From: Candidatus Desulfopertinax cowenii
GTDB lineage: Bacteria; Bacillota; Desulfotomaculia; Desulfotomaculales; Desulforudaceae
Direction: 5' to 3'
Length of the DNA: 64,000 nt
Assembly (NCBI GenBank): GCA_001899445.1
Contig: MPOA01000001.1
Location: 62,001-126,000 of the forward strand
Shown: positions 935-3,808 of the stretch, one piece after another
Position numbering within the stretch: the first letter of the stretch is position 1
Layout: the number at the start of each line of letters is the position of its first letter
Translations under genes and position numbers: made by a program
Notes under the pieces: generated by a model
What the model was told of the DNA's origin: nothing
Database searches by the model: none
What the model saw: only the letters and a program-made list of their open reading frames with translations

Positions 935-1678
935 TTAGCCGAACCGGTAGATTTCCTTTTTCAGCCGCTTGATGATCCGCTTTTCGAGCCGGGAAATGTA
1001 GGACTGGGAAATGCCAAGCAGGTCAGCCACTTCCTTCTGGGTCTTCTCCTCGCCGTTATGCAACCCGAAACGCAACTCCATGATTTTTCGTTCGCGCTGT
1101 GACAGCTTCTGCAACGCCAGGCGCAATAGCTTGCGGTCTACTTCCTCCTCCAGGTTCTTGTAGATGATGTCCCCGTCGGTGCCCAGCACATCCGAAAGCA
1201 GCAATTCGTTACCATCCCAATCGATGTTCAGCGGTTCCTCAAAAGAAATCTCCCCGCGGATCTTGCTGTTCCGGCGCAGGTACATCAGGATCTCGTTTTC
1301 AATGCATCGGGAGGCGTAGGTGGCCAGCTTGATCCGCTTTCGGGGATCGAAGGTGTTCACCGCCTTGATCAAGCCGATGGTGCCGATCGACACCAGGTCC
1401 TCGATGCCCACCCCGGTGTTTTCAAACTTGCGGGCGATGTACACCACCAGGCGCAAGTTGCGCTCGATGAGCGTGCTCTGCACCGCCTTGTCGCCAGCCT
1501 CCAGGCGGCTGATCAGCCCAGCCTCCTCGTCCACCGTGAGCGGGGGCGGCAGGGCTTCGCTGCTGCCCACGTAGTGGCCTTCGGGCCGGTACCCGAGATT
1601 TCGTAAAAGTTTAATCGCCAGTAAGCGCAGGTAAAGTCTGATTTGCCAAGCCTGACGCATTGTTAATTCCCCCTTCAA
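935..1678 (-). CDS. sigE: RNA polymerase sporulation sigma factor SigE (pro-form)
   Basis: Early mother-cell sigma factor, made as an inactive membrane-bound precursor and cleaved by SpoIIGA. At 247 residues it has the family length. The first ~30 residues form a hydrophobic/basic pro-sequence ([18 protein letters not shown]), followed by region 2 ([32 protein letters not shown]) and a C-terminal region 4 helix-turn-helix ([20 protein letters not shown], about residues 215-235). The ATG overlaps the spoIIGA stop by 4 bases, implying translational coupling with its processing protease. The operon probably starts from the Spo0A-type promoter at 2685-2718. Confidence 0.97.
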
Positions 1679-2601
1679 GAGAATCCGGCCGCCGTTTCCA
1701 GGAGCCGTGGGTTAACCAGCGCCCGATAACTTGACTCCGGGCACAACCGGCGCCGGTAGACCGCCACCACCACATCCTTTACCCGGACCACCTCCCAGCC
1801 GTACGTGACCTCCACCTGGTCCGGCCGGAAACCCAGTAACAGCCCGCTGGACCGTCCCAGGGACTGAAAGGGGATAAGCCGCAGCCGGGTCGCCCAGCGC
1901 CTGTCCGCCAGACCGGACAGCATCTTCTGGAAATCCGGCTCGGCTTCGGCTTCCAGCGCCGCCTGCAGTTCAGCGGGCAAGAGTTCTCGAACGGCGTCCA
2001 GTTCCACGACGAGCACCGGATGGTTGGTCAGCGGGTCCGACAACTGGTTCCCCGTGTCCACTAGCGCGTTCACGGCCAGCCGCCGGCCGTACAGGGAAAT
2101 GCGCACGGGAACGTGGAACAGACTTCTGATGAACCGTCGCCGCAAAAAGGTGCCTCCCGAACGCCCCACCAGCCAGGTCGACACCAGGGCGGCGACGATG
2201 ATCGGCCAGAAATGGTTCCGCGGCACCTCCACGAATCCTTGCCCACCGGGGGCGAACCCGCTGCCGCCCACGAAGAAGCTGAGGCCGAACACCAGCCCCC
2301 CCAATCCGAAGGAGGCCAGGTAGAATACCACCAGCGCCGCCCCCAGTTTCCGCGCCGGCTGCGGGACGAAGGCAGCCGCCAGCATCAACAGGGAAACGCC
2401 AACCTTGGTTGGTATTTCGGCCAGGACAGCGGGAACGGGAAAAAACAATACGACCGCGTAGACGGCGCCCAGCAGGGCCGCGGCCACCAGCCGCCACAAA
2501 GACCACGGCAACAGGCAAAACCGCGCGGTGAGCCAGAGAATGGCAAAGTTCATCAGCACGTTGCCGAGTAACACCTCGTCCAGGTAGACGGTGTACACCA
2601 C
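1675..2601 (-). CDS. spoIIGA: Sigma-E processing peptidase SpoIIGA
   Basis: Membrane aspartic protease that activates pro-SigE in response to the forespore signal SpoIIR. The N-terminal half holds about five hydrophobic segments. The C-terminal half has the catalytic motif LVDTGNQL (Asp about residue 182), characteristic of this family. It heads the two-gene spoIIG operon and overlaps sigE by 4 bases. I place the start at GTG 2601, 8 bases after AAGGGG; an in-frame GTG at 2610 gives a product 3 residues longer (311) but has a poorer ribosome site. Promoter: see 2685-2718. Confidence 0.95.
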
Positions 2602-2660
2602 GCAAGCCACCCCTTGCCCCCAATCCCTACCAGTTTATATGATCGGTGTCCGGGAATATT

Positions 2661-2705
2661 CCAAAAACAAAAACCCCGGTACCAATTATAACAACCGGGG
2701 TCTGG
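2661..2705 (-). terminator. Rho-independent terminator of ftsZ / dcw operon
   Basis: On the minus strand an ACCCCGG arm and a CCGGGGT arm flank a 15-base A/T-rich loop, followed by TTTTTGTTTTT. It lies between the ftsZ stop (2759) and spoIIGA. The loop contains the TATAAT of the spoIIG-type promoter. Confidence 0.8.
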
Positions 2706-2718
2706 AAAAAACTGTCAA
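2685..2718 (-). promoter_or_regulatory. spoIIG-type promoter with 22-bp spacer and possible Spo0A box
   Basis: On the minus strand TTGACA (2713-2718) and TATAAT (2685-2690) are perfect sigma-A hexamers separated by 22 bp rather than 17. The B. subtilis spoIIG promoter has the same over-long spacing and needs Spo0A. TTTGACA overlapping the -35 differs by one base from the 0A box TTCGACA. The architecture is seen; Spo0A control is inference. Confidence 0.65.
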
Positions 2719-2758: not shown

Positions 2759-3808
2759 TTAACGTCTTCTCAAAAAAGCGGGAATATCCAGGTCTTCATG
2801 ACTGTTAAAGGGCTTGAGGTCATCCTCGGCCGCCGCGACCGCCCGGCGCGCAGCATCCGTGTCAAAACCGGTGGCGATCACAGTCACCCGTACTTCCTCG
2901 TTCATACTCTCGTCAATCACCGCGCCGAAAATGATGTTCGCCTCCGGATCCACGGCCTGGGCGATGATCTCGGCGGCCTCGTTCACTTCGAAGAGCCCCA
3001 AGGTCGTCCCACCCGTGATGTTCAACAGTACTCCGCGGGCGCCGTCCACTGAAGTCTCCAGCAGCGGGCTGGAAACGGCCATTCGAGCCGCCTCGGCCGC
3101 CCGGTTGTCGCCGGACGCCGTGCCGATGCCCATCAACGCCGAACCCGTTTCCTTCATAATGGTCTTTACGTCCGCGAAGTCCAGGTTGATCAGGCCGGGT
3201 ACCGCGATCAGGTCGGAAATCCCCTGGACGCCCTGCCGCAGGACGTCGTCCGCGATTCTGAAAGCCTCCACGATGGAGGTGTTTCGATCAATGACCTGCA
3301 GCAGTTTGTCATTGGGAATGGTAATTAGGGTATCCACCCGGGCACGCAGATTCTCGATGCCCATGTCGGCCTGCTGAAAGCGTTTACGGCCCTCAAAAGT
3401 AAAGGGACGGGTAACCACGCCCACCGTCAGGGCGCCCAATTCCCGGGCTACCTCCGCAACAATGGGAGCCGCGCCCGTACCAGTACCGCCGCCCATCCCC
3501 GCCGTTACGAAAACCATGTCCGCACCCTGCAACCCGTGCACCAGTTCTTCCCGACTTTCCTCGGCCGCCTTCTGTCCGATTTCCGGGTTGCCGCCTGCGC
3601 CGAGACCCTTGGTGAGCTTGGCCCCAATCTGGATCTTATGGCTGCACAGCGACACGGCCAGCGCCTGGGCGTCGGTGTTAATCGCGATAAACTCAACCCC
3701 TTTGAGGTTGGCGCTAATCATCCGGTTAACAGCGTTATTGCCGCCTCCACCCACGCCCACGACCTTGATGATGGCAAAGTTGTTGGCTTCGAGTTCCAAG
3801 TCTATCAC
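2759..3808 (-). CDS. ftsZ: Cell division GTPase FtsZ
   Basis: Tubulin homologue that polymerises into the Z ring. At 349 residues it has the GTP-binding signature GGGTGTG (residues 106-112), the T7-loop region NLDFADVK near 210, a short linker, and the conserved C-terminal tail DIPAFLRRR (341-349) that binds FtsA, SepF, ZipA or MinC in other species. The start is GTG with AAAGGAGG 7 bases upstream. It is the last gene of the dcw operon and is followed by a terminator overlapping the spoIIG promoter. No ftsA precedes it; an sbp gene occupies that place. The membrane tether for FtsZ must therefore be encoded elsewhere (SepF is a candidate, not seen here). Confidence 0.99.

Follow-up and report, generated by a model that had tools for sequence, protein, structure and literature searches.

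A spoIIG-type promoter with its -10 box in the loop of a terminator-like hairpin upstream of spoIIGA-sigE

The ftsZ-spoIIGA intergenic region

The window, i.e., the whole 64,000-nt stretch of Candidatus Desulfopertinax cowenii DNA that was analysed, carries on its minus strand ftsZ (2759..3808, an ORF), spoIIGA (1675..2610) and sigE (935..1678) in this order, with a gap of 148 nt between ftsZ and spoIIGA. The identities of FtsZ (TIGR00065), SpoIIGA (TIGR02854) and SigE (TIGR02835 and NF006158) were confirmed with NCBIfam equivalog models; the sigE coordinates are those of the ORF as listed, and the true start may lie further in. The nearest named relatives of SpoIIGA are found in Desulforudis metagenome-assembled genomes, with up to 76% identity. 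Further along the same strand, a terminator-like hairpin with seven T lies between sigE and sigG (753-732), and past it, at ~661-630, there is a GTATA-N15-GGCAATAATG element that resembles a sigma-F promoter for sigG.

All the elements described below also lie on the minus strand. A TTGACA hexamer (2713..2718), placed 40 nt from the stop of the co-directional ftsZ gene, and a TATAAT hexamer (2685..2690), 22 bp from the former, make up a promoter (P1) directly upstream of the spoIIGA-sigE operon, as expected of a spoIIG-type promoter. The exact pattern TTGACA-N20..23-TATAAT occurs only once in the 1.78-Mb genome, and the reversed pattern, used as a control, does not occur.

The -35 box of P1 overlaps the sequence TTTTGACA (TTGACA with the two preceding T), the complement of which, TGTCAAAA, is a putative 0A box with one mismatch; the near-match over the -35 that the earlier note had pointed out is thus real. 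The mismatch is at the fifth base (TGTCAAA versus the core TGTCGAA; PMC3485338). In Clostridioides difficile, alteration of the consensus box at the fifth base lowers the affinity of Spo0A about tenfold, and the spoIIGA region is bound by Spo0A with low affinity (PMC3485338). Spo0A is encoded in the genome analysed here (PF08769, E = 1.9e-46), and an intact CGACA core was observed in 25 of 98 genomes of the order. Weak 0A boxes are reportedly to be expected at spoIIG, going by the title of a 1994 study by Baldus (cited in PMC3485338), and the degenerate box of P1 would therefore be compatible with Spo0A control, without being a proof of it.

The -10 box of P1 lies within a predicted hairpin. 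A left arm, ACCCCGGT (2694..2701), and a right arm, ACCGGGGT (2673..2680), form an 8-bp stem that encloses the 13-nt loop TGTTATAATTGGT, which contains the TATAAT hexamer, and the stem is followed by the T tract TTTTTGTTTTT (2663..2673). The stem score was never equalled when the flanks were shuffled (0 of 200), and among the 63 -10-like sites of the window the TATAAT of P1 is the only one enclosed by a strong stem that a T tract follows. Taken by itself, the folding energy of the full 73 nt would not single the element out (z -1.4; 24 of 200 shuffled sequences were equally good). A generic scan for promoters and terminators detected neither P1 nor the hairpin, owing to the long spacer and to a loop of more than 8 nt; an Rfam scan gave four matches, all far under the gathering scores, which we regard as chance. 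The proposal of the earlier note that the TATAAT hexamer lies in the A/T-rich loop of a terminator is borne out: the same bases are shared, and the overlap is real and beyond chance.

Conservation of the promoter and of the hairpin

We looked for SpoIIGA in 113 genomes of the order; the upstream sequence was read from 105 of them. With up to two mismatches, 77 of the 105 genomes have the TTGACA-TATAAT pair at 21 bp and 27 have it at 22 bp; at the remaining spacings from 13 to 30 bp it occurs in 2 to 25 genomes, whereas shuffled controls gave 2-6 per spacing. The peak became cleaner when only one mismatch was allowed: 39 genomes have the pair at 21 bp and 16 have it at 22 bp, against 0-3 at other spacings. 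Locus-by-locus reading revealed the pair in nearly every genome of the order, with the -35 conserved as NYGACA and the TATAAT box also conserved. In the rest of the phylum, 46 of 68 genomes carry the pair at 21 bp when no more than one mismatch is allowed, and in C. difficile a sigma-A promoter of spoIIGA with the boxes GTGACA and TATAAT has been mapped by RNA-seq (PMC3789822).

The earlier note had named non-conservation of the pair as an outcome that would speak against a spoIIG-type promoter. Since the pair is kept at 21-22 bp in ~100 members of the order, i.e., in nearly all of the 105 relatives, and in most of the phylum sampled, that outcome did not occur. The 22-bp spacing that it had also stressed is present in the window but belongs to a minority among the relatives; 21 bp is usual, and a strict 22-bp spacing was discarded as a conserved feature.

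The hairpin has a narrower distribution. A stem with a score of at least 16 was found around the P1 -10 in 77 of 99 genomes of the order, versus 3 of 99 when one flank was shuffled. Three genomes (G022, G057 and G068) were left out of this count because the scan was anchored on the wrong site; in these the usual hairpin is visible further downstream. Altogether, the hairpin is present in 14 of the 17 families with data. Outside the order a stem surrounds the -10 in 4 of 62 genomes (1 after shuffling), and among these four a clear T tract is seen only in G129. Judged from these sequences, the hairpin around the -10 is specific to the order of the window, unlike the phylum-wide -35/-10 pair.

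Two arrangements outside the order should be mentioned. At locus L156 of G129 the same promoter-in-terminator layout is observed (TCCGGGC-TATAATTAAAGCTG-GCCCGGA followed by a T tract), perhaps reflecting a sister lineage or an independent origin. In G188 (locus L128) the loop of a second hairpin, 145-194 nt upstream of spoIIGA and distinct from the P1 promoter of that genome, likewise contains TATAAT; this hairpin has a T7 tract (GCCAGCGAG...CTCGGCTGG).

The arms of the stem change together among the relatives, as in CCCCGGTT/AACCGGGG, GCCCTGGC/GCCAGGGC, AGTCTGGT/ACCAGACT and others. In the MAFFT alignment (A1) the arms were out of register in some families, and column-based counting of pairs was replaced by a swap test: when the right flanks were swapped between genera, the mean stem score fell from the observed 19.8 to 14.3, with a maximum of 16.2 in 200 trials. 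At least five T in the eight positions after the stem were found in 81 of 103 genomes, and the T-rich columns lie on the downstream side. By its stem, its paired changes and its sense-side T tract, the predicted hairpin has the features of a one-directional intrinsic terminator, and its overlap with the promoter is conserved in the relatives. The palindrome could otherwise be a DNA site, either an operator or a control of melting at the -10, with a bound protein or the GC-rich arms setting the opening of P1. The arms flank the -10 exactly and accompany the promoter, and the T tract is poor in some genomes of family f7, as this explanation would have it. The paired arm changes, however, are more readily explained by RNA pairing than by a fixed protein site, and the T tract lies on the sense side in most genomes, so that we consider a DNA site very improbable.

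Relation of the hairpin to ftsZ and a putative insulating role

Across genomes the ftsZ stop lies 27 to ~640 nt from the -35, and the -10 keeps its hairpin throughout this range. Families f7 and f3 have an entire gene interposed between ftsZ and P1 (coding for ~320 aa in f7 and ~220 aa in f3, e.g., at loci L224 and L234), and in part of f14 other genes are the neighbours; in all these cases the hairpin is kept. The earlier note had called the hairpin the ftsZ terminator. That a predicted intrinsic terminator lies downstream of ftsZ stands, but the hairpin accompanies P1 even at loci with a remote ftsZ or with intervening genes, and the idea of a terminator defined by ftsZ was rejected. Because it remains on the -10 despite a distant or separated ftsZ, the hairpin, as read from these comparisons, is to be assigned to the promoter and not to ftsZ.

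The same observations bear on the regulatory competition that the earlier note had proposed, in which polymerases terminating after ftsZ occlude the spoIIG -10 and a complex at P1 blocks the polymerases coming from ftsZ, so that the transcription of division and that of sporulation are antagonistic through the bases they share. The overlap is exact and conserved order-wide, and from what is generally known of polymerase footprints a polymerase halted on the T tract would sit over the -10. Yet the hairpin is also kept with P1 where ftsZ is distant, separated or replaced, so that a specific ftsZ-spoIIG link is not conserved. Furthermore, the polar septum of sporulation requires FtsZ as well, and what the cell would gain from such an antagonism is not evident. 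That stopped polymerases would occlude P1, and that P1 would act as a roadblock, follows from the geometry and may have a regulatory role, but the competition as proposed is unlikely to account for the overlap.

We consider it probable, from the sequence comparisons, that P1 of spoIIGA-sigE is a Spo0A-type sigma-A promoter whose -10 lies in the loop of a one-directional terminator that insulates it against read-through. Polymerases arriving from upstream (from ftsZ in the window) would transcribe both arms, the hairpin would form and transcription would stop on the T tract. Termination would then take place at the P1 start region, and no read-through into sigE would be expected during growth. 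From standard promoter geometry, transcription from P1 should start ~7 nt past the TATAAT box, at about position 2678 within the right arm. Since this start lies past the left arm, the P1 transcripts would lack that arm, could not fold the hairpin and would escape termination. By the geometry of the overlap, the promoter would thus carry its own insulator.

The distribution of other terminators is partly in agreement with insulation. In 64 of the 79 genomes with the hairpin no other terminator was found within 320 nt upstream, and among the hairpin-less genomes 8 of 20 have a separate upstream terminator (e.g., G010 at -6, G038 at -49 and G037 at -133). The remaining 15 of the 79 hairpin genomes have another upstream terminator as well, and the blocking of read-through alone would not fully explain why the hairpin is kept; the contrast (8 of 20 versus 15 of 79) is a modest one. 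In two hairpin-less genomes, G077 and G015, the upstream ORF, a putative gene, is on the opposite strand; in G018, where the three nearest upstream ORFs are on the opposite strand, the hairpin is kept, which counts against a pure insulator.

The overlap might instead be a matter of historical packing: a single overlap, dating from the ancestor of the order, in which each part is kept for its own function and is hard to move, the overlap itself being idle. There is one layout across the order with few cases outside it, and in some lineages the hairpin has been lost and a separate terminator takes its place, as such a history would predict. The upstream gap, however, has been repeatedly enlarged or rebuilt and new genes have been inserted with the hairpin still on the -10, and the 15 genomes that retain it beside another upstream terminator also speak against packing. 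We therefore hold packing to be possible but rather doubtful, and insulation of P1 by its own hairpin remains the preferred reading.

A sigma-E-like element downstream of P1 and comparison with known systems

Downstream of the hairpin we observed a second element (P2) that was absent from the account given in the earlier note. Its -35-like sequence, GGAATATT (2655..2662), abuts the T tract, and its -10-like sequence, CATATAAA (2634..2641), follows 13 nt after; both are of the sigma-E type. Of 103 genomes of the order, 62 have the pattern ATA[AT]-N13..15-CATA on the downstream side of P1; none of 47 control stretches inside spoIIGA contains it. After base shuffling of the regions downstream of P1, a stricter scan found 0-2 chance pairs whatever the distance. 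Outside the order P2 was found in only a few genomes. Ahead of spoIVA, the same type of motif is present in 23 of 30 genomes, that of the window included, and ahead of spoIIIAA in 8 of 28. P2 and the spoIVA element of its own genome (AATAT-N14-CATATAAA and TATAT-N14-CATATATA, respectively) agree in the type of -35, the CATA of the -10 and the distance. In C. difficile, an ATA -35 distinguishes sigma-E from sigma-K promoters (PMC3789822).

The -10 of P2 lacks the last T of the full CATANNNT motif, and for this reason we name it sigma-E-like, a resemblance rather than a proven sigma-E promoter. The form CATATAAT is common among the relatives, and the -10 of spoIVA in the window's own genome likewise has A as its last base. 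In many genomes the P2 -10 runs into a conserved GGTA (CATATAATGGTA; 2641-2630 in the window); this feature occurs likewise in some lineages outside the order, for which no clear -35 partner was found.

From its resemblance to the sigma-E-type promoter of spoIVA, P2 predicts that sigma-E of these bacteria feeds back positively on the operon that encodes it: once active, sigma-E would reinforce spoIIGA-sigE from a site just beyond the terminator. The degenerate 0A box and the P2 -10 without its last T count against the overall explanation, which comprises both the insulated P1 and the reinforcement from P2. In an extended form, upstream transcription and Spo0A-driven initiation would be mutually exclusive on the shared bases and sigma-E would then take over from P2, making ~85 bp a one-way hand-over, order-wide, from growth to mother-cell transcription; we offer this as a speculation with a low probability of being right.

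In an old group of spore formers the start switch of the mother-cell programme would lie within the loop of a transcriptional stop. As a rule, promoters and terminators are regarded as separate; here one block of bases resembles both. This dual block is kept with compensatory changes in 14 families of the order, before the commitment sigma factor of sporulation, and offers a natural, testable case in which the hairpin around the -10 would insulate the promoter. In the open-licence literature we found no description of such a promoter/terminator overlap or of sigma-E autoregulation of spoIIGA-sigE. The spoIIG promoter, the intrinsic terminator and the sigma-E promoter are known kinds; their order-wide fusion before the commitment sigma factor appears to be new.

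The spoIIG promoter of Bacillus subtilis is used by sigma-A with phosphorylated Spo0A and has weak 0A boxes and a long spacer. The locus described here is alike in its operon, the long -35/-10 spacing, the putative degenerate 0A box over the -35 and the presence of Spo0A in the genome; B. subtilis spoIIG is not known to have a terminator hairpin around the -10 or a downstream sigma-E promoter. With intrinsic (Rho-independent) terminators the hairpin shares a GC-rich stem, a T tract and a position downstream of a gene, but differs in its 13-nt loop, which holds the promoter -10 of the next operon. The spoIIGA promoter of C. difficile has the same boxes ahead of the same operon, but in that work only a sigma-A promoter is described (PMC3789822), and the hairpin is mostly absent outside the order of the window. 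Finally, P2 is like sigma-E promoters such as that of spoIVA in its ATA-type -35 and CATA-type -10, 14-15 nt apart as scanned, and differs from typical ones in that the last base of its -10 is A in the window and that it stands before sigE itself.
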